Source of the DNA: Desulfobacteraceae bacterium
Lineage (GTDB): Bacteria > Desulfobacterota > Desulfobacteria > Desulfobacterales > Desulfosalsimonadaceae
DNA length: 64,000 nt
NCBI GenBank assembly: GCA_011390465.1
Contig: JAABSH010000010.1
Span: forward strand, 1-64,000
Direction: 5' to 3'
Position 1 is the first letter of the stretch. Each line of letters opens with the position of its first letter. A program made the translations under genes and the position numbers. Below the pieces are notes generated by a model. That model saw only the letters and a list, made by a program, of their open reading frames with translations, did not search any database and was not told the origin of the DNA. Positions 4,277 to 28,471 of the stretch are shown piece after piece.

Positions 4277-4414
4277 GTCCGAATTCTTTGTTGCGCTGCA
4301 TCCCCAGCTGCTTCAACGTCCGCCAAGTCCGCATCATTGCTGGGGATCTGTGCGCCTAATTCTTATAAGATTGGTGGATCTTTTTTCTTTGCCATCTAAA
4401 CTTGACTTTTTACG
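4277..4414. repeat. MITE-like dispersed repeat family A, copy A1
   Basis: About 138 bp. It aligns along its whole length with the reverse complement of 17070-17204 (shared CTTTGTTGCGCTGCATCCC, CGCCAAGT, CATTGCT, TTTTTTCTTTGCC and final GACTTTTTACGG). One end keeps the GACTTTTTACG terminal sequence; the other has decayed. It lies in the gene-free stretch 4021-4463, in which nothing else was recognised. Confidence 0.75.
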
Positions 4415-4463
4415 GTTGCATCAAGAAGAGTTGGCGCTAAAAATTCCGGAGAATTCCGGAATA

Positions 4464-5639
4464 TCAGCCTCCCAGGGCCTTCATCATAAGCGGCAGGGCC
4501 ACGAAGGTGCCGATGCTCGAGCCGAGGTTGGTGAAGACCACCACCAGCAGAATCCGGGTGACTTTGTTACGCCAGAACCCCCGGACTGAAAGGATGTCTT
4601 CGGGAAGGGATTCCAGATCCCGGACTTTGGGTTTCCGGGCAAAGGCTTCCACCAGTCCCGACACCCAGCCGGCGGCAACCATGGGATTCAGGGACGTGAC
4701 CGGGGCCGCAAACACCGCCGAAAAAACAGTGAAAGGATGGCCAAAGGCGGCAATGGCGCCGATGCCGGCGAACACAGCATTGGCCGCCACCCACCAGATA
4801 ATCATGTCTTTACCCGCGCCGGCGCCCCCCTGGAAAAATCCGAACACAATCAGGCCGACGATCAGGGCGGGAATCAGCCATTTGAACATGCCGGAAAACC
4901 GGCCTTTGGGCGGCAGGGTTTCCAGGGCCGCCAAGTCACTGTCCGTATGGATATATTTCCGGATCCCGGGTTCGTGCCCGGCCCCCACCACGGCCACAAT
5001 TTTTTTGCCCGGAGCGGTCTTGATCTTCTGGGCCAGATACCGGTCCCGCTCGTCAATCAAAATCTCCCGCAGGGCCGGGTGGGATTTTTCCACTTCAGAC
5101 AGAATGGATTCCAGCATGTCCGCCTGCTTCATCTCTTCAATGTCTTTTTCATCGATCTCATCCACCCCGCCCATGGACAGCACAAGCTGAAAAATTAATT
5201 TTATTTTGCTCCAGAATCCCGTACTTCGCCAGGTCCGGGACAGGGTGATGGTAATATCGCGATCCGCCAGACAAACCTCCGCGCCGGCGGCTTCCGCCGC
5301 ATTTATCGCTGTAATCATTTCCTCCCCGGGTTTTACCCCGAGCTTATCGCCGATGCGCTTCTGAAAAGATGCCAGCATCAGATTGGACAGCAGCAGAAAG
5401 GATTTTTTCTCCTTAATCACTTTGATAATATCCATTTCCTGCCACTGGGCTTTCTTTTTAATGGACTGGAACCGGGACGGACACAGCTCCACACAGACCG
5501 TGTCCGGCTTTTGTGCTTCGATCACGGCAGCCACCTGATCAACGCTTTCTTTGGACACATGGGCCGTGCCCACCAGAATAATTTCCTTGTCATCAATAAA
5601 AATCGAACCAGCCTTTTCAGTTCCGGCAATGGGGGTCAT
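4464..5639 (-). CDS. TraB/PrgY-family membrane protein
   Basis: 391 aa. The N-terminal half carries the conserved TraB motifs: ILVGTAHVSKESV (about 21-33), VCVELCPSRF (about 49-58), and VVGAGHEPGIRKYI (about 217-230). The C-terminal 140 residues contain three or four hydrophobic helices (WLIPALIVGLIVFGFF, MIIWWVAANAVFAGIGAIAA, ILLVVVFTNLGSSIGTFVAL), so that half is membrane-embedded. Enterococcal TraB/PrgY lowers secreted sex pheromone, and the fold is related to Tiki-type metallopeptidases; the role in anaerobic proteobacteria is not established. The single gene is flanked by non-coding DNA on both sides. Confidence 0.85.
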   Translation of the reverse strand: MTPIAGTEKAGSIFIDDKEIILVGTAHVSKESVDQVAAVIEAQKPDTVCVELCPSRFQSIKKKAQWQEMDIIKVIKEKKSFLLLSNLMLASFQKRIGDKLGVKPGEEMITAINAAEAAGAEVCLADRDITITLSRTWRSTGFWSKIKLIFQLVLSMGGVDEIDEKDIEEMKQADMLESILSEVEKSHPALREILIDERDRYLAQKIKTAPGKKIVAVVGAGHEPGIRKYIHTDSDLAALETLPPKGRFSGMFKWLIPALIVGLIVFGFFQGGAGAGKDMIIWWVAANAVFAGIGAIAAFGHPFTVFSAVFAAPVTSLNPMVAAGWVSGLVEAFARKPKVRDLESLPEDILSVRGFWRNKVTRILLVVVFTNLGSSIGTFVALPLMMKALGG

Positions 5640-5840
5640 GCAGTCATCCTTTCATGGCAGCTGTTCAAATCTCCGTAAAATACGCGATAATACCGGATTC
5701 ATATGTCATAGGGGCAACCAACACAAGCATAAACTGACAGGTCCCAATCACATCATCTTATCTGGTTTTAATCTGTTGCCGACGCCGGCCGGTTTCTGCT
5801 TGTCTTTGGTGCTTGTTGGGTATTTGTTGTTGTTTGCTGC

Positions 5841-5869
5841 TTGACCCGGCGGGATATAATACTTAGTAT
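5841..5869 (+). promoter_or_regulatory. Candidate sigma-70 promoter for the 5902 gene
   Basis: TTGACC (5841-5846), a 17-bp spacer and TAGTAT (5864-5869), 32 bp before the ATG at 5902. Prediction by consensus only. Confidence 0.4.
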
Positions 5870-5901
5870 ATACGATAATTTTCACTTTATCGGGAAACAC
5901 C

Positions 5902-6318
5902 ATGCGCATTTATGATTCCACCTATTACTGGGAAGGATGGGGCGGAAAACTCCAGCTGGCCAGCGGCAAATGCCGGTTGCGCATTTATGACCGGTCCAGG
6001 GGCAAAAACACGGGAATTTCCTTTTTAAAACCCTATATTGTCATTGTATCCGATCTTCCGGACAGCAAAATGACCGTCCGAAGCTGTGCCGGCCATATTG
6101 CCACAACCGTCACCCGGGAATTTAATATGGATCCGGACCGGATGCTGTGGGTGGAATATTATCCCCTTGTCACCTATGGAACCAATTTTGAATATGCCAT
6201 CCCGGAGCAATACATTGCCGTGGACTTTGAATGGCATAAAGACAAGGCCCTTCATCCCCAGTGGCGGGAACTGAAATCGCCGCTGCTGGATACGGTGAAA
6301 GACCTGATCGCGACATAA
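5902..6318 (+). CDS. Conserved-looking hypothetical protein, 138 aa
   Basis: No family was recognised. The protein is soluble-looking, rich in Tyr, Trp and Asp, with no signal peptide or membrane segment, and reads like a compact alpha/beta domain (alternating strands KLQLASGKCRLRIYD and PYIVIVSDLP, then a helix). A candidate promoter lies just upstream and a hemerythrin-like gene follows after 58 bp on the same strand, so the two may be co-transcribed. The full-length open frame and normal codon use for the region support it being real. Confidence 0.6.
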   Translation: MRIYDSTYYWEGWGGKLQLASGKCRLRIYDRSRGKNTGISFLKPYIVIVSDLPDSKMTVRSCAGHIATTVTREFNMDPDRMLWVEYYPLVTYGTNFEYAIPEQYIAVDFEWHKDKALHPQWRELKSPLLDTVKDLIAT

Positions 6319-6376
6319 AACGCCTGTAACTGTTTTTTCAAAAGGGCGCCGACCCGCCCCGAAATCCGGAGGACCA

Positions 6377-6868
6377 ATGGATAACGTTTACAATATTAAT
6401 AATCAGGTGGCGAAAATTGCCAAAGAACACAAAATCATCACCGATTATGTGGTAAAATTTAAAGAAAGTCTGAAAAACCGGGACAAAAAATTTTTCAAAG
6501 GACTGGCAACATTTTTTGATTTCCTGGAAAAAGACCTGAAGCAGCACTTTCGGTTTGAAGAAACAATTATTTTTCCCGCCGCCATTTCCGGAGACACGCA
6601 ATACGACAATGTGCTTCTGGTGCTGTCCCTTGCAAAAGAACACGGCATGTTTGAAACGCAACTCCAGGCCCTGCAATCGGAAATTAAACAGATTCAGGTG
6701 TCCCGCGAAAAACTCTCCACCGATCTGATTGACAGAATCAAAGAATTTCTTGATGCCCTCAAAACCCATGCCAAACGCGAAATAACGGATCTTTTCCCAA
6801 TGGTCGACGCCAATCCTGCCAGCAAAGACCTGCTTCAGGTCTATGCAACAGAAATGACCAGAATTTAA
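6377..6868 (+). CDS. Hemerythrin-like (HHE) domain protein
   Basis: 163 aa, all-helical. The metal-ligand pattern of hemerythrin HHE proteins is visible: His in IAKEHKIITDYV, the HxxxE of QHFRFEETIIFP (about 58-62), His in LAKEHGMFETQL, and HAKREITDLFPMVD near residue 135. These bind a di-iron centre; in anaerobes they are proposed to sense or store O2, NO or iron. It is cytoplasmic (no signal peptide). A ribosome-binding GGAGG sits 8 bp upstream of the ATG. Confidence 0.85.
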   Translation: MDNVYNINNQVAKIAKEHKIITDYVVKFKESLKNRDKKFFKGLATFFDFLEKDLKQHFRFEETIIFPAAISGDTQYDNVLLVLSLAKEHGMFETQLQALQSEIKQIQVSREKLSTDLIDRIKEFLDALKTHAKREITDLFPMVDANPASKDLLQVYATEMTRI

Positions 6869-22181: not shown

Positions 22182-22970
22182 TTAAAATTCCAGCACCAGT
22201 CCCACCGGACAATGGTCTGATCCATAGACCGCATTGTCAATAAAGGCTTCTTTCACATGTCCGGCATCCACCAGGTCCCGGGTCACAAAAAAATAATCAA
22301 TGCGCCACCCGGCATTCCGCTCCCGGGCATTGAACCGGTAAGTCCACCAGGAATATTTCACGGTTTCCGGGTACAGATGGCGGAAGGTGTCCACATATCC
22401 CTGATCCACAATTTTGTCCAGCCAGTCCCGTTCAACCCGCAGAAACCCGGACCGGTCCGCATTGGCTTTGGGATTTTTCAGGTCAATTTCATTGTGCGCG
22501 GTGTTGTAATCCCCGCAGATCACCAGACTTCTGCCGGCCTTGCGAAGGCCGCCGGCATAATCAAAAAAATCCCGGTAAAACGCCAGCTTGTATTCCAGCC
22601 GGTCATCCCCCATCTGGCCGTTGGGAAAATAAATATTAAACAGCACAAAATCCTCAAAATCCATCTCCAGAATCCGGCCTTCCGCGTCATAGGCGTCAAT
22701 GCCGATGCCGTTATTGACCGTGCGCGGCGGCATTTTTGTCCAGGCCCCCACGCCGCTGTAGCCTTTTTTTACGGTGCTGTAGGACCAATACGACGCATAT
22801 CCGTCAATATAACGCAGCTCATCCGCCAGCTGGGGTTCCTGCAGCTTGGTTTCCTGAACACAGATCACATCCGCGTCAAATCCCTTAAACGATTCAAAAA
22901 AGCCCTTTTTGGCCACGGCCCGAAGCCCGTTCACATTCCATGAAATCAGCCGGATCTGTTTTTTTGCCAA
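22182..22970 (-). CDS. xth: Exodeoxyribonuclease III
   Basis: 262 aa from TTG 22970, preceded by a strong AGGAGGG site; an upstream ATG at 23009 overlaps the previous stop but lacks such a site. All catalytic elements are present: Asn in ISWNVNGLRAV, Glu in CVQETKLQEPQ, Asp/Asn in ICGDYNTAHNEIDLKN, and the Asp-His pair in YGSDHCPVGL. The enzyme cleaves AP sites and digests 3' ends of duplex DNA. It is placed in a run of minus-strand genes behind the glycyl radical enzyme locus, perhaps only by read-through. Confidence 0.92.
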   Translation of the reverse strand: MAKKQIRLISWNVNGLRAVAKKGFFESFKGFDADVICVQETKLQEPQLADELRYIDGYASYWSYSTVKKGYSGVGAWTKMPPRTVNNGIGIDAYDAEGRILEMDFEDFVLFNIYFPNGQMGDDRLEYKLAFYRDFFDYAGGLRKAGRSLVICGDYNTAHNEIDLKNPKANADRSGFLRVERDWLDKIVDQGYVDTFRHLYPETVKYSWWTYRFNARERNAGWRIDYFFVTRDLVDAGHVKEAFIDNAVYGSDHCPVGLVLEF

Positions 22971-23005
22971 AATCCCTCCTTTCCGTGCTTGTCTTAAATC
23001 ACTTT

Positions 23006-23878
23006 TCATAAAGTCTCAAATTCCGTCACCGGGGTGAGCGGAATTGGCGGATAAATCTGGCCGTGGCAGGGCGGCATGGAATTGTACACCCAGTCAATAT
23101 CCACACTGCGGGCGGCAATCCCCCTGGAGCGTTTTATGGTGCTCAACTTTCCCCGGACCAGCACATCCTCCATTTTCATGGTCAGGCCGAAAACCGCCAC
23201 CGTCTGATCCGGCGCGATTTTCCGAATTTCATCTCCCCAGGCCCACGGGGAAAACACCAGGCGCCGGCTGTCGGCCGCCTGGCACTCCAAGAGCGGGATG
23301 ATCTCCGGAAATCCGTCCTCCCGAACCCAGGCCATGAATTTCAGGGCATCCAGGCGATTGAACAGGGTTTCGCCAAACGGGGTCAGGACCCGGTCCTGAT
23401 CCCGGGCCGGATCTTTGGATGGGGTCACTGTGCCATATTTTGCAATTTTTGTCATCAGGATGGAAAAAATAATTTTTACAAGCGGCAGCCGGTCCGGTCC
23501 CCGGAAATCCACCAAATCCAGATAATGTACGGTGTTAATGCCAAAATAGGCATTGTACCGGAACATGGGAAGCTGGTTGTAGCGCTCATATTCCGGCCCT
23601 TCCCCGCGCAAATGGGTCCATCGGGCATGGCCCCGCCACATTTTCCGGTCCATGGTCAGCACCAGAAAAGCGGTTTTTGAATTTTCCTGGATATGGGATT
23701 TGCCCCGGCCTTTACAGAACTCCCCCAATGTAAGCTGTTTCGGCCCGGATGCCGCAATGGAAGTAATCAGGGTGATATGGGGCAGGCCTTCCGGATTGAT
23801 GGATGCCACCAGCCCGATTTTTTCCGCCGGTGCAAACGCGTTGATCGTTGTTTCATCAAATTCTTTCTGATTATACAT
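23006..23878 (-). CDS. PPOX-like (FMN-binding split barrel) protein
   Basis: 290 aa. The first 130 residues resemble the pyridoxamine-phosphate-oxidase-like split barrel: IGLVASINPEGLPHITLITS, then KTAFLVLTMDRKMWRGHARW. Strands in the second half (KFMAWVREDGFPEIIPLLEC) look like a second, related barrel, giving a two-domain protein. Such proteins bind FMN, F420 or haem; the substrate is unknown. It lies 80 bp after the activase gene and may belong to that locus. Confidence 0.65.
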   Translation of the reverse strand: MYNQKEFDETTINAFAPAEKIGLVASINPEGLPHITLITSIAASGPKQLTLGEFCKGRGKSHIQENSKTAFLVLTMDRKMWRGHARWTHLRGEGPEYERYNQLPMFRYNAYFGINTVHYLDLVDFRGPDRLPLVKIIFSILMTKIAKYGTVTPSKDPARDQDRVLTPFGETLFNRLDALKFMAWVREDGFPEIIPLLECQAADSRRLVFSPWAWGDEIRKIAPDQTVAVFGLTMKMEDVLVRGKLSTIKRSRGIAARSVDIDWVYNSMPPCHGQIYPPIPLTPVTEFETL

Positions 23879-23957: not shown

Positions 23958-24929
23958 TTATTCCAAACGGGTGCTGCCGGTAGGAACCACCATATCCGGA
24001 TCAACACCGGAACTTTTTGCCGCATCCGCCATTTCATCGACAAAATCCAGGGTCAGCAACTCTTCTTTTTCAAACTCCCACCGCTGCCCCAGACGAAGAT
24101 ATTTGTCCCGGCACAGGTTGTTAAACGCGCACAATTCCCAGCGGGAAACCACGTTCCTGAGGTGCGCGCCAATAAACTGACCAATGGCGCCTATATTTTC
24201 ACGGGTGGCGGTTGCGCGGGGAATAAGGGGGGTGCGGATCCACATTTCCGACGGATGCACATGGGACCGCATATAATCTGCCACATAGTGCAGATTTTCC
24301 AGAATCCGGCGGTTGTCATGGCCGGTAAATTTTTTATGCAGAACCGGGTCCATGAGTTTCATGTCAAACAATACCAGCGCTGAATACGGCAGCACCTGAT
24401 CCAGGGCCTCCCGGCGGCAACACCCGCAGGTGTCAAGGGCCGTATGAATGCCGCGCTGCCGGAGGGCTTTTAAAAATTGCCCTGCAAATTCAGACTGAAG
24501 GGCTGGTTCGCCGCCGGAGACGGTAATGCCGCCTTTGGATGTTTCAAAATAGGCCTGGTCTTTGAGCACTTCGGCTGTCAGGTCATCCAGATCCCAGGTT
24601 TTTCCCATGATTTCCAGGGCCGTGCCGGGACATGCGTCAGCACAGTCGCCGCACCCGGTGCAGCGGGTCCGGTCGATTTCCATGCCGGATTCCGTGAGCG
24701 CCAGGGCATTTTCCCGGCAGACCGATAAACAGGTCCGGCACCCGATGCACCGGTTGCCCACCCACTGAAGCTGGGGGTTCGGGGAAATGCTTTCCGGATT
24801 GTGGCACCAGGCGCAGTGAAGGGAGCATCCCTTAAAAAACACCGTCGTTCTGATGCCCGGCCCGTCTTCCGTGGACATGCGCATGATTTCAAAGATGGTG
24901 GCGAATTCCGCAGTGGAGGAAGGGGTCAT
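23958..24929 (-). CDS. Glycyl radical enzyme activating protein (radical SAM)
   Basis: 323 aa. The radical-SAM cluster motif CX3CX2C is visible (GCSLHCAWCHNPES, about 34-47). Two inserted ferredoxin motifs follow (CIGCRTCLSVCRENA and CTGCGDCADACPGTA), as in activases of dehydratase-type and C-S lyase-type enzymes rather than simple PFL activases. The SAM-binding GG motif is in GGITVSGGEPALQ. It would abstract H from Gly818 of the enzyme encoded upstream at 25131-27662. A MITE-like element lies between the two genes. Confidence 0.92.
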   Translation of the reverse strand: MTPSSTAEFATIFEIMRMSTEDGPGIRTTVFFKGCSLHCAWCHNPESISPNPQLQWVGNRCIGCRTCLSVCRENALALTESGMEIDRTRCTGCGDCADACPGTALEIMGKTWDLDDLTAEVLKDQAYFETSKGGITVSGGEPALQSEFAGQFLKALRQRGIHTALDTCGCCRREALDQVLPYSALVLFDMKLMDPVLHKKFTGHDNRRILENLHYVADYMRSHVHPSEMWIRTPLIPRATATRENIGAIGQFIGAHLRNVVSRWELCAFNNLCRDKYLRLGQRWEFEKEELLTLDFVDEMADAAKSSGVDPDMVVPTGSTRLE

Positions 24930-24973: not shown

Positions 24974-25098
24974 CAATGTCATTAACTTAGGCCATATGCG
25001 TAGGGGAGGGGTTTATCCCCTCCCGGCATGGGTTGCCTCTTTCGCGGGAGGGGGTAAACCCCTCCCCTACATTGAAACCTCTTAAGTTAACGACATTG
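24974..25098. mobile_element. MITE-like element family B, copy B1
   Basis: 125 bp with 18-bp near-perfect terminal inverted repeats (CAATGTCATTAACTTAGG at 24974-24991; CTTAAGTTAACGACATTG at 25081-25098, two mismatches) and large inner inverted repeats of the TAGGGGAGGGG / CCCCTCCCCTA type. The reverse complement occurs at 33781-33904. It sits between the glycyl radical enzyme and its activase. Confidence 0.8.
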
Positions 25099-25130: not shown

Positions 25131-27662
25131 TCAGAACTGTTCATGGCTGAGCCGCGCAATCACCTCGTCCTGAAGCTCCCGGCCCACAGAAGTAAAATAC
25201 GCATTGTATCCGGTAATCCGCACCAGCAGGTGCCGGTAGTCCTGGGGATGTTTCTGGGCGTCTTTGAGCATGTCCGGATCCAGGATATTCACCTGCAGAC
25301 AGGTGCCGCCGTTTACGGCATACCCTTTTAAAAATGCTTTGAACTTTTCCCGGTGCGCCGGATCTTTGATAATGGCCGGATTAAACGTCATGGTATGGCT
25401 CGCCCCATTGGGCAGGCTGTTTAGATAAGTTTCCCAGTCCCCGTTTTCAAAATCCTTTCCGCCCAGGGCCTTGCCCACGGAATTGGCATTGGCTGTGGGG
25501 CCGTTAATGTCCGCGCCGTTGGAGGGACAAATGGCATTGGAAAGAAACTGGCCCTTTTTCCGGCCGTCCGCGCTGGCAGCCATGATATACCCGTCGCCGG
25601 CCCAGTAATTCCAGCTCAGCATGCCCGGCCGGAAGCGCCGGCCCGTGGATAGGGTGCAGTGCTTCCAGGTTTCTTCGGTCCAAAGGTCCATCACCTGTTT
25701 TGCCATTTCATCCGCGGCATCATCATCCCGGCCGTACTTGGGGGCTTTATTTTTTGCCAGGGCCTGGAGCACGTTGTGGCCTTCCCAGTTGTCTTCCAGG
25801 GCCTGCCTGAGCTGCCGCATGGTGCATCGTTTCTCGTCAAATACCAGATATTTGATGGCCAGCAGGGAATCCACGGTGGTGGCAAAGGTCACCGCCTCCA
25901 GGGTAACAAAACTAATTTCCGCGGCGCCCCGGGTCACATCCCGTGCTTTTTCCGCGCATCCCTTTACCAGGCACGACAAATAGGGCGTGGGCAGAAACCG
26001 GGCCCGCACGGATTCGGATGTTTCATAGAGATCCACACATTTCCGGATAATATAGGCTGTCTGTTGTCTGTAAGCGCTCCAGAAAGCATCCCAACGCTGA
26101 AATGCCGCGGCATCGCCGGTGGAAGGACCGTCCTGCCGGATCTTCTCTTTTTTCAAGGTCATGGGATCCACAAAGGGAAGCAGATCTTTTCCGCCGGTGA
26201 TGGCCAGTTCCACGGCTTTTAAAAGATTGAGATTGCAGTCCACGGTGCCGGAGCGGTCATTGCCGGCCATGGTATTTTCCAGACAGCCCACCGGGCAGTA
26301 ATCATGCACATTGTCTTTGTTGATTAAATGCCCGATTTCCGCCATTGCCGCTTCCCGCATCATGCCGGCCATGGACCGCTCATCAAAATTGATCAGAAAC
26401 GGCGCACCCTGACTGGATGCCACCATGTCCGTCATTTTATCCAGCAGCGTGTCCGGCGAATCCCGGTGCATCCGGATATTGGGTTTGGGCTCCAGAATCG
26501 GGCTCATCTCATCGATCACCTCCAGAATGGCAAAGGTCAGATCATTGGTCATATCCAGAAGTGTTCCATGACGTTTTCCCAATCCGGACAGGGTAATAAG
26601 CTGGCCGAATCCGGAAGTGATGCCCTGGTTGCCGTTCCGGATCATGGCATCATAGGCGGTGTTGGCATGAATCCAGAAACATTTTAAAATTTCCTTGCCG
26701 AATTCCCGGGACATGCCCGAGGCAATGGAATGTTCCCAGAACGGCAGCAGGTACTGGTCAATGCGGCCGAATGACACCCCGGGACCCGGATAGTTTTCAT
26801 CGCTCATCACCAGCATATGGGTAAGCCACAGGGCCTGGACCGCTTCCCAAAACGTTTCCGGCGGGTTCCAGGGCACTTTTTTCAGGTTTTGTGCCATCTG
26901 CGCCAGCTCGGCTTTTCGTTCCGTGGTATGCGCCGAATTCTTTTCACCGGCACTGAGCCGTTCACAAATTTTTGCGTATTTTCCAGCCAGATCCCGGGGC
27001 AGGGTGGCGGCCGTCATCATGGCCCGGAGCTGGGCGCCTTTCGGCCCTTTGCGATCTGCATCAGACAAGTCGCGGTAAAAATTTTCCAGTTCCTCGTAAA
27101 TTCCTTTCCACCCGATGGAGAGCACCCGGTCATACCCCGGCACCAGGTGGCCGCAAGTGGCGCCGGCATTGCCGTAGCCATGGTTGTGGAACCAGTTCAT
27201 GGCAGACCGGGCCCCGTTTTTGCCGGCTGTCAGGCGGTTAAACTCCGCCTGTTCCGTTTCCGTAAGGCACATGGACGCTTGGATATTGAACCGGCCCCCG
27301 GCAATCAGATCGCCGGGCAGTATTTCCGCGGGCAGGTACTTCACCATCACTTCTTTGATAAACCAGGCCCGGCGCTCCGCCAGGGATTTTGCCCAGAAAT
27401 CCGGCGGCAGGGCCACGGGCCGGGCGCTCTGGCGGTAGGAGGACAACAGGGTCTGCATGAGCATGTAGGTTTCCGGCACAATATAAAAGGTCATTTCGTT
27501 AAACTGCACATCCCATGGCGTGCCGGTGGTCCAGGATGTTGATTCATTGTTCCAGGCCCGCTCAGCTCCGTTAAAATAATACTCCCGGAGCCACTCCATG
27601 CGCGGCGACAGGCCCGCAGGCATCTTGAGCGGTGGGGTGATGTTTTGCGCTACAGCCGTCAT
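25131..27662 (-). CDS. Glycyl radical enzyme of unknown substrate (dehydratase/lyase type)
   Basis: 843 aa. The thiyl-radical Cys460 is in YCPVGCLENTMAGNDRSG, with the general-base Glu462 two residues later. The glycyl radical Gly818 lies in VRITGYNAYFTSVGRELQDE. The Cys-x-Glu pair is shared by diol dehydratases, choline TMA-lyase, hydroxyproline dehydratase, arylacetate decarboxylases and sulfonate C-S lyases; it excludes pyruvate formate-lyase (Cys-Cys) and X-succinate synthases. I cannot assign the substrate. Upstream (26 bp) is a FadR-type regulator and downstream an activase with two extra clusters. There are no microcompartment or transporter genes. The ATG follows GGAG by 7 bp. Confidence 0.9.
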   Translation of the reverse strand: MTAVAQNITPPLKMPAGLSPRMEWLREYYFNGAERAWNNESTSWTTGTPWDVQFNEMTFYIVPETYMLMQTLLSSYRQSARPVALPPDFWAKSLAERRAWFIKEVMVKYLPAEILPGDLIAGGRFNIQASMCLTETEQAEFNRLTAGKNGARSAMNWFHNHGYGNAGATCGHLVPGYDRVLSIGWKGIYEELENFYRDLSDADRKGPKGAQLRAMMTAATLPRDLAGKYAKICERLSAGEKNSAHTTERKAELAQMAQNLKKVPWNPPETFWEAVQALWLTHMLVMSDENYPGPGVSFGRIDQYLLPFWEHSIASGMSREFGKEILKCFWIHANTAYDAMIRNGNQGITSGFGQLITLSGLGKRHGTLLDMTNDLTFAILEVIDEMSPILEPKPNIRMHRDSPDTLLDKMTDMVASSQGAPFLINFDERSMAGMMREAAMAEIGHLINKDNVHDYCPVGCLENTMAGNDRSGTVDCNLNLLKAVELAITGGKDLLPFVDPMTLKKEKIRQDGPSTGDAAAFQRWDAFWSAYRQQTAYIIRKCVDLYETSESVRARFLPTPYLSCLVKGCAEKARDVTRGAAEISFVTLEAVTFATTVDSLLAIKYLVFDEKRCTMRQLRQALEDNWEGHNVLQALAKNKAPKYGRDDDAADEMAKQVMDLWTEETWKHCTLSTGRRFRPGMLSWNYWAGDGYIMAASADGRKKGQFLSNAICPSNGADINGPTANANSVGKALGGKDFENGDWETYLNSLPNGASHTMTFNPAIIKDPAHREKFKAFLKGYAVNGGTCLQVNILDPDMLKDAQKHPQDYRHLLVRITGYNAYFTSVGRELQDEVIARLSHEQF

Positions 27663-27688
27663 CTGTGATCTCCTTTTGTGGTTAAAGG

Positions 27689-28411
27689 TTACTTTGAAAT
27701 CATTCTCCGCAACCGATCCTCGCCATGCACCAGCATCCGTCGCATCAGGTCCGCGGCAAGCTGTTCGTCCTGATTTGCCAGCGCGGATACGATCTTTTTA
27801 TGAAACGCAAACACCTTCTCCACAACATCCGAATCCCGGAAAAACTGGCCGGACAGGTTGGTGTACACCGGCCTGAAAGAATTCAGCATAAGGGGATACA
27901 GCAGGTTGTCTGTACTAATGGCAAGGGTGAGATGAAATTCAAAATCCAGAACCGTAATTTCCTGAACCGCATCCCGGTCCACTGCCGCCTCGGCGGCCAG
28001 GAGCTTACGGAACTCCGCCATCTGGGCCGCGGTTCGGTGCCGGGCGGCCAGTCGCGCGTTTTCCACTTCCATCAGCATCCGCATGTTGAGCAGGCCCTCC
28101 ACCAGCCGGGCATCCAGTTTGCCGTCATGATATTCCAGAAGCGACACCAATAGCGACACCGATCCCTTGCGGCGGAAATCATTCACCATGGCGCCTTTTC
28201 GCGGGGTAATGGTGACCAATCCTTTGGCCGCAACATCCACCAGGGCCTCATGCACCACCGGCCGGCTGACGCCCAGGCGTTTTGCCAGTTCGCGTTCCGG
28301 CGGCAATTTCTCACCGGCCGTGAACGCGCCGGACAAAATCAGCCCCTCAAACCGCTTAATGCAGACATCTTTTAAACTCTCTGTCTTTACAGGATGCAAT
28401 CCATCCAGCAT
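27689..28411 (-). CDS. FadR-subfamily GntR transcriptional regulator
   Basis: 240 aa. N-terminal winged helix: LILSGAFTAGEKLPPERELA and RLGVSRPVVHEALVDVAAKG (about 27-70). The C-terminal all-helical FCD domain (about 95-235) keeps metal-binding positions (Asp and His in LDFEFHLTLAI, His in KVFAFHKKIVSAL). FCD regulators bind carboxylic acids and often control the adjacent catabolic operon, here the glycyl radical enzyme 26 bp downstream. A fitting operator lies 50 bp upstream of its start, so autoregulation is likely. Confidence 0.9.
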   Translation of the reverse strand: MLDGLHPVKTESLKDVCIKRFEGLILSGAFTAGEKLPPERELAKRLGVSRPVVHEALVDVAAKGLVTITPRKGAMVNDFRRKGSVSLLVSLLEYHDGKLDARLVEGLLNMRMLMEVENARLAARHRTAAQMAEFRKLLAAEAAVDRDAVQEITVLDFEFHLTLAISTDNLLYPLMLNSFRPVYTNLSGQFFRDSDVVEKVFAFHKKIVSALANQDEQLAADLMRRMLVHGEDRLRRMISK

Positions 28412-28460
28412 GGGATTTATATCTCCTATGATATTTTTGTTGGTAATGTTTTTTGGCTGG

Positions 28461-28471
28461 TGGTATTACCA
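28461..28471. promoter_or_regulatory. Predicted FadR/GntR operator
   Basis: TGGTATTACCA, a palindrome matching the FadR-subfamily pattern TGGT-N3-ACCA, 50 bp upstream of the regulator's start codon. A further half-site TGGTAAT lies at 28441-28447. Confidence 0.6.

Follow-up and report, generated by a model that had tools for sequence, protein, structure and literature searches.

Glycyl radical enzymes (GREs) perform some of the hardest reactions of anaerobic metabolism, and new GRE families have often brought new substrates. The product of one of these enzymes, HypD, passes to P5C reductase and not to a split-barrel protein. The subject of this work is a GRE locus that does contain such a protein. 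It lies on the minus strand of a 64,000-nucleotide stretch from a Desulfobacteraceae bacterium (positions 1 to 64,000 of contig JAABSH010000010.1, assembly GCA_011390465.1; the whole stretch is called the window below) and is arranged, in the order of reading, as an operator-like site, an FCD/GntR regulator, the GRE, its activase and a PNPOx-like protein. We know of no other GRE family with a partner as fixed as this last protein.

Several described systems can be compared with this locus; statements taken from papers cited by PubMed Central number refer to excerpts of those papers. HypD, for which P5C reductase is the coupling enzyme (PMC7077986), shares with the window GRE the fold, the Cys-x-Glu (CxE) motif, an equivalent of His160 (H172) and an activase of the TIGR02494 subfamily, but the identity is 25% (Foldseek) and HypD D278, F340, Y450 and T645 are not conserved. 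B12-independent glycerol/1,2-propanediol dehydratase has the CxE motif and His164 of the glycerol dehydratase (GD) in common with it, whereas GD His281-Ser282 are replaced by P294-G295 in a loop lengthened by two residues, and the cassette has no recurring neighbours from an aldehyde pathway. Isethionate sulfite-lyase (IslA) is alike in fold and CxE but differs in the sulfonate ligands R189, Q193 and R678 (PMC8473560), which correspond, by eye against the alignment, to A168, H172 and G680. HupZ and the Desulfovibrio vulgaris FMN-binding protein resemble the partner in the split-barrel fold (partner residues 6–130, Z 12–15), but the partner differs from the FMN-binding split barrels in a second beta-rich half, an RYNxY motif and a constant link to a GRE, with a profile E-value of 0.006. 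Finally, LssP is encoded by a PNPOx-type gene of the limonenylsuccinate synthase (lss) operon, with a role unknown to the authors (PMC12583861). It is similar in standing within a GRE operon, a likeness drawn from its description, but accompanies a fumarate-adding GRE; lss was the single GRE operon with a PNPOx-type gene found in the literature searched, as far as the excerpts go.

It may be concluded that the three-gene cassette of GRE, activase and split-barrel protein is conserved in sediment bacteria of at least three phyla. The family, the cassette, the coupling of its members, the residue pattern and the conserved site are established. New here is a sequence-defined GRE family with a constant type of partner, whose still unassigned reaction becomes testable. 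In our opinion, the locus may encode a radical dehydratase or lyase whose dedicated split-barrel redox partner handles the product, a reading to which we give a probability of about 45%. The features of the locus are as follows.

28454..28471, minus strand: operator-like site TGGTAATACCACCAGCCA (core TGGTAANACCA), 42 bases upstream of the regulator start
27689..28411, minus strand: GntR/FCD (FadR-type) regulator, 240 residues; Pfam FCD 71.7 bits, GntR 62.9 bits
25131..27662, minus strand: GRE, 843 residues; Pfam PFL-like 366.2 bits, Gly_radical 72.5 bits
27147..27149, minus strand: His172 codon of the GRE, aligned with GD His164 and HypD His160
26238..26285, minus strand: Cys loop of the GRE, residues 460–475 (CLENTMAGNDRSGTVD); 15 of 16 positions invariant in 50 sequences
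25209..25211, minus strand: Gly818 codon of the GRE, within the loop R-(I/V)-T-G-Y-N; radical site by homology
23958..24929, minus strand: GRE activase, 323 residues; radical SAM protein with cysteines for two auxiliary 4Fe-4S clusters
23006..23878, minus strand: PNPOx-like two-domain split-barrel partner, 290 residues, following the activase
23546..23560, minus strand: RYNxY motif of the partner, residues 107–111; R107, Y108, N109 and Y111 invariant in 18 partners

The GRE among the known families

The enzyme has all the attributes of the GRE superfamily: a PFL-like domain, a C-terminal glycyl radical domain, and the Cys and Gly loops. Cys460, Glu462 and Gly818 showed no variation across the 50 sequences aligned (the window protein and 49 relatives at 64–81% identity), and the CLENTMxGNDRSGTVD block varied at position 466 alone. 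A preliminary description of the locus, made from its letters, had pointed to exactly these three residues and to the distinctive character of the block, and both observations hold. Most positions of the Cys loop were also found in the shorter GRE relatives discussed below.

No NCBIfam cut-off was reached by the GRE. The top match was the broad PFL2-3 subfamily (377 bits vs a cut-off of 678), and every equivalog listed scored less than half its cut-off, namely (bits/cut-off) HpfG 350/1000, HypD 338/1100, HpsG 328/1000, CutC 310/1050, IAD 223/1100, HPAD 159/1150 and PFL 74/994. Among solved GREs, CutC was the best match (282.4 bits), and the scores also include MasD (145.4 bits), TutD (145.1 bits) and HPAD (2y8n, 114 bits); the values of about 145 bits for MasD and TutD, against 282 for CutC, agree with the earlier exclusion of X-succinate synthases. 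A MasD relative (1429 bits to MasD) did not contain Gly-Cys in its sequence. Pyruvate formate-lyase (PFL) was also rightly excluded, since Gly459 precedes Cys460 and an adjacent Cys-Cys pair is thus absent; PFL is described, in an excerpt, as using the pair C418/C419. The best 50 Foldseek rows, headed by HypD, had identities of 18–25% and TM-scores (query) of 0.66–0.74, and the AlphaFold model of the GRE was good overall (pTM 0.85).

The separation from other GREs is sharp. A family-profile scan of 60 related genomes gave 18 whole copies with 1615–1705 bits, copies cut by contig ends scoring below this range, and the next GRE had 382 bits. In a tree of 24 GREs, nine family members grouped as a single clade (100/100), with a stem measuring 2.38 changes per site; in a tree of 32 GREs, the window group and the shorter GREs together formed one clade (100/100), with the window group nested among the shorter ones. 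By scores and trees, the enzyme did not cluster within a characterised family but stood outside all GRE families tested, as the preliminary description had proposed. On this comparison of sequences, the GRE belongs to an uncharacterised family outside every characterised family compared. Among the open-licence literature matches listed, no paper describing this GRE family or the cassette was found.

The cassette, its spread and its partner protein

Patterns derived from the window protein were searched for in 84,980 species genomes and yielded 67 loci, which is a lower bound: as labelled, 12 belong to Chloroflexota, 6 to Spirochaetes and 49 to Desulfobacterota or 'Deltaproteobacteria' kin. Single taxonomic placements may be wrong, because all loci except L060 and L071 come from metagenome-assembled genomes. 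L060, from Desulfatibacillum alkenivorans DSM 16219, is the sole locus of the 67 from a named strain rather than from such an assembly or a symbiont, and contains the GRE, the activase and the partner, the FCD regulator being absent.

When the 67 loci and the window were searched in six frames with hidden Markov models, the activase was found in 59/59 and the partner in 55/55 of the loci with room for them on the contig, and the regulator in 41/61. The operon had been regarded as an 'orphan', a view that cannot be kept, since the PNPOx-like gene is its constant partner at every one of the 55 loci. The span then assigned to it, 25131–28471, holds the GRE and the regulator; the activase lies outside, and the gene at 23006–23878 had been overlooked. 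Clustering of the neighbouring genes showed that three families alone recur in more than five loci: the activase, the PNPOx-like protein and the FCD regulator.

The same coupling is seen in whole genomes. Among 395 genomes of the phylum (partner E up to 1e-20, at most six candidates scored per genome; GRE E up to 1e-130), the partner profile matched 36 and the GRE profile 41, all 36 falling within the 41. Four of the five GRE-only genomes have a partner adjoining the GRE at a lower score (64–101 bits); the contig of the fifth, G329, stops about 1 kb past the GRE. In the 60 related genomes a strong partner match was found in 23; the GRE-only cases lie at or near contig ends (G022, G039, G059) or represent a fragment (G028), and the partner-only case, G032, begins 410 bases into its contig. 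Some of these 60 relatives seem to be the same assemblies as the 67 loci, so that the counts are not independent.

A shorter GRE (about 800 residues, 575–987 bits) occurs in 11 of the 41 genomes, and nine such proteins that were compared have 41–48% identity to the window protein. Nine of the 11 genomes carry the region on one contig, six of them with GRE, activase and split-barrel genes in the same order. As to the remaining three, the partner of L139 was missed by gene calling and found by the profile, L141 has no activase reading frame labelled, and in L145 the GRE and activase run into one another across a stretch of N. This parallel inheritance across both GRE groups is strong evidence that the GRE and its partner work together. 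The plasmid records gave 141 matches, all of them below 60% identity (among the matches listed, the highest was 31%), no relative was found in viral contigs, and PADLOC gave no match. One cassette of the shorter type (L142:7032–16962) lies, by eye, about 600 bases downstream of a tryptophan-like operon.

The window partner matches PNPOx_N at 23.9 bits, the Pfam cut-off being 28.1; a match at E≤0.1 was obtained in 44/45 partner members, and two shorter-group partners exceed the cut-off (L138, 46.6 bits; L148, 38.5 bits). Its model (pLDDT 91.7) consists of two beta-rich halves, and residues 6–130 have the split-barrel fold, being superimposed on HupZ with Z 14.8 and a root-mean-square deviation of 2.8 over 119 residues and on the D. 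vulgaris FMN-binding protein with Z 12.3. Judged from this fold, the partner is likely to bind flavin. In 18 partners from both GRE groups (the window protein and 17 others at 19–53% identity to it, those of the shorter group at 19–28%), 12 positions are invariant, among them R107, Y108, N109, Y111, K180 and P269-P270. A second PNPOx-like gene, recognised by eye, overlaps the cassette end at L011:6136–6765.

The activase belongs to NCBIfam TIGR02494 (298.7 bits, cut-off 174.35). Its radical-SAM cysteines C35, C39 and C42 and eight ferredoxin cysteines are invariant in 14 sequences, the latter in agreement with the two-cluster activase of the preliminary description. C267 and C273 are likewise invariant in the 14 sequences of the window group; they were rejected as a feature of the whole system, C267 being absent from eight shorter-group activases and C273 from some. 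Eight shorter-group activases (L138–L140, L142–L144, L146 and L147) lack the cysteine at the C64 position, which belongs to the first auxiliary cluster.

Active site, proposed reaction and competing readings

The window GRE was aligned with HypD, GD, CutC, 8id1, 7e7l and 2f3o. The CxE motif, a mark of GRE eliminases (PMC8473560, PMC7077986), is present as C460-L-E462. E462 and H172 align with E436 and H160 of HypD, the Gln variants of which are inactive (PMC7077986); the eliminase Glu/His pair is kept. Other pocket positions are changed, HypD Phe340, Tyr450 and Thr645 corresponding to G353, N477 and W684. Residues invariant in both GRE groups and present in no more than 2 of 15 other GREs include N463, T464, D469, R470, G472, V474, D475, N477, G353 and others, as well as T587 and E589 (T-x-E) and W684, N685, Y686 and W687 (WNYW). 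T817 and N820 of the TGYN loop occur in all family rows shown except the broken sG141. The comparison of residues near Cys460 with known GREs, suggested in the preliminary description, has thus revealed an eliminase pair within an invariant set of the family's own. A pocket fixed in both groups points to one substrate class, unlike those of the GREs compared, as we infer. The earlier hint at a sulfonate substrate does not hold for the single binding mode open to a check, since the IslA ligands are absent.

According to the reading preferred here, the activase would install a radical on Gly818, as homology suggests, and the radical would pass to Cys460, whose thiyl would abstract a hydrogen from the substrate. 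Glu462 and His172 would hold a substrate hydroxyl or its equivalent, as in GRE eliminases, and radical elimination of water or another leaving group would give a reactive carbonyl, enol or imine; both proposals come from the presence of these two residues. The split-barrel protein would most likely reduce or otherwise handle this product, like P5C reductase after HypD, although this is a guess among redox roles.

A number of observations weigh against this scheme. The Glu beside Cys also occurs in the arylacetate decarboxylases HPAD and IAD (PMC6181972), and by this analogy the CxE motif is no proof of elimination by itself; the invariant T587-x-E589 could belong to a different reaction. P294 stands where HypD has Asp278 and GD has His281, and its loop is longer by one to two residues. 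In the GRE model, confidence is low at the Cys and Gly loops, which is why the residues were compared on sequence. No product and no reductase activity are known for the split-barrel protein, G045 gave a weak partner match (31.5 bits) without a GRE of the family, and the neighbouring genes yield no consistent pathway. The regulator is missing from 20 of the 61 loci with room for it, and the carboxylate substrate suggested earlier, which rests on this FCD protein, is for that reason a weak hint.

The main rival to a product-handling role takes the split-barrel protein for an electron donor of the activase, replacing flavodoxin, or for a protector or repairer of the radical enzyme, with no part in product metabolism. 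GRE activases require an external source of electrons, flavodoxin in E. coli (PMC6325248), the nearest solved folds include the Desulfovibrio FMN-binding protein, and at most loci measured, going by the start codons called, the partner gene either runs into the activase gene or begins no more than about 30 bases away. LssP in its operon (PMC12583861) and a masD-like gene with a PNPOx-type gene some 2.8 kb away may be added to this list. However, PNPOx genes are seldom found close to the other GREs of these genomes (five pairs among the matches listed), and activases therefore seem not to need one generally. We consider this explanation rather unlikely.

An improbable alternative is a GRE of decarboxylase type acting on a larger, perhaps aromatic, carboxylic acid, in which E589 would hold a distal polar group like Glu637 of HPAD. 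T587 and E589, which are invariant in both groups and rare in other GREs, the FCD regulator and the replacement of the strand 3 aromatic F340 of HypD by G353, which would lengthen the pocket, are in accordance with it. But the equivalence of E589 and Glu637 is a guess from spacing (the same strand region), HPAD (2y8n) scores below the eliminases, H172 matches dehydratases, and neither a small subunit nor an acyl-CoA pathway recurs nearby. Among 247 genomes of the phylum, none gave a match above the HPAD cut-off. A drifted ordinary eliminase of the diol, choline, hydroxyproline, isethionate or sulfopropanediol type would explain CxE, His172 and the common fold, but is very unlikely in view of equivalog scores below half the cut-offs, the missing IslA ligands, the replacement of HypD Asp278, Phe340, Tyr450 and Thr645 by P294, G353, N477 and W684, and the long, fully supported stem in the trees.

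A broader idea, which is speculative and more doubtful than the lyase or dehydratase reading, is that of a two-component radical enzyme: a split-barrel flavoprotein would be obligate in the GRE cycle, carrying electrons to or from the substrate, product or radical centre, and the system would act in Desulfobacterota, Chloroflexota and Spirochaetota on a sediment metabolite outside the known GRE substrates. With this partner, the question of whether a dedicated flavoprotein is required by some GREs can be put to the test.

Regulator, neighbourhood and minor observations

The FadR-type nature of the regulator, proposed earlier, is confirmed by its Pfam FCD and GntR matches given above. In 31 of 32 regulator genes (BLAST cluster) an operator-like site with 18–27 of 27 bases lies close to the start, the exact core occurring in 30; the single real miss scores 14, and in the control, one mononucleotide shuffle per sequence, the best score was 16/27. 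The fullest form of the palindrome is TTGGCTGGTGGTAATACCACCAGCCAA. The exact core is found once in the window against 0.09 expected, and the 18-base site has one exact copy in the genome and no other with fewer than two mismatches. No further regulon genes were found, the genome containing three sites with 2–3 mismatches and five for the reversed control pattern. The regulator's control thus probably extends to no other operon, and the cassette would be self-contained. The palindrome around TGGTAATACCA is probably where the FCD protein acts to repress its own operon, and the substrate or product would release it. The regulator and its site offer a direct route to the ligand and hence to the substrate.

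Beyond the activase, partner and regulator, no gene cluster was present in more than five loci within 12 genes (BLAST threshold). The neighbourhood was rejected as a guide to the substrate, as it comprises genes of single loci, which look like lineage accidents: 4-hydroxybenzoyl-CoA reductase-like genes in L025, a LivG-type ABC ATPase and acyl-CoA ligases in L038 and L022, and an aldehyde:ferredoxin oxidoreductase-like gene in L071 (by eye), with no second copy among the neighbours searched. The preliminary description had stated that no microcompartment, transporter or aldehyde dehydrogenase lies nearby; none was recognised by eye among window reading frames of at least 150 residues, and the family scans covered six genes and are not a full test.

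Outside the family, five PNPOx-GRE pairs within 6 kb were noticed by eye among the matches listed. About three are expected by chance according to an estimate, and a general link between PNPOx proteins and GREs was rejected because the count is about what chance gives. Four pairs lie near GRE frames of 1025–1063 residues, with several genes between in the two inspected (L134, L135), and the fifth involves the masD-like gene of L136. In the latter, a same-genus genome, the PNPOx-type gene (L136:1081–1521) lies about 2.8 kb upstream of the masD-like gene (4315–6861, 1429 bits). Another GRE of 1022–1042 residues, with the loop WSATGCVEPT(I/L)SGKH, recurs within the genus (L134, L135 and L137) together with a gene resembling, by eye, a TetR-type regulator.

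Within the window, an exonuclease III-like gene (by eye, 22182–23009, same strand) shares four bases with the end of the PNPOx-like gene and is not among the gene clusters recurring at other loci. Between the GRE and activase genes, at 25000–25070, there is an inverted repeat (GTAGGGGAGGGGTTTA and its complement), the core of which is present in 3 of 72 sequences, a count that includes this place twice (window and L003); it may represent a mobile palindromic element.

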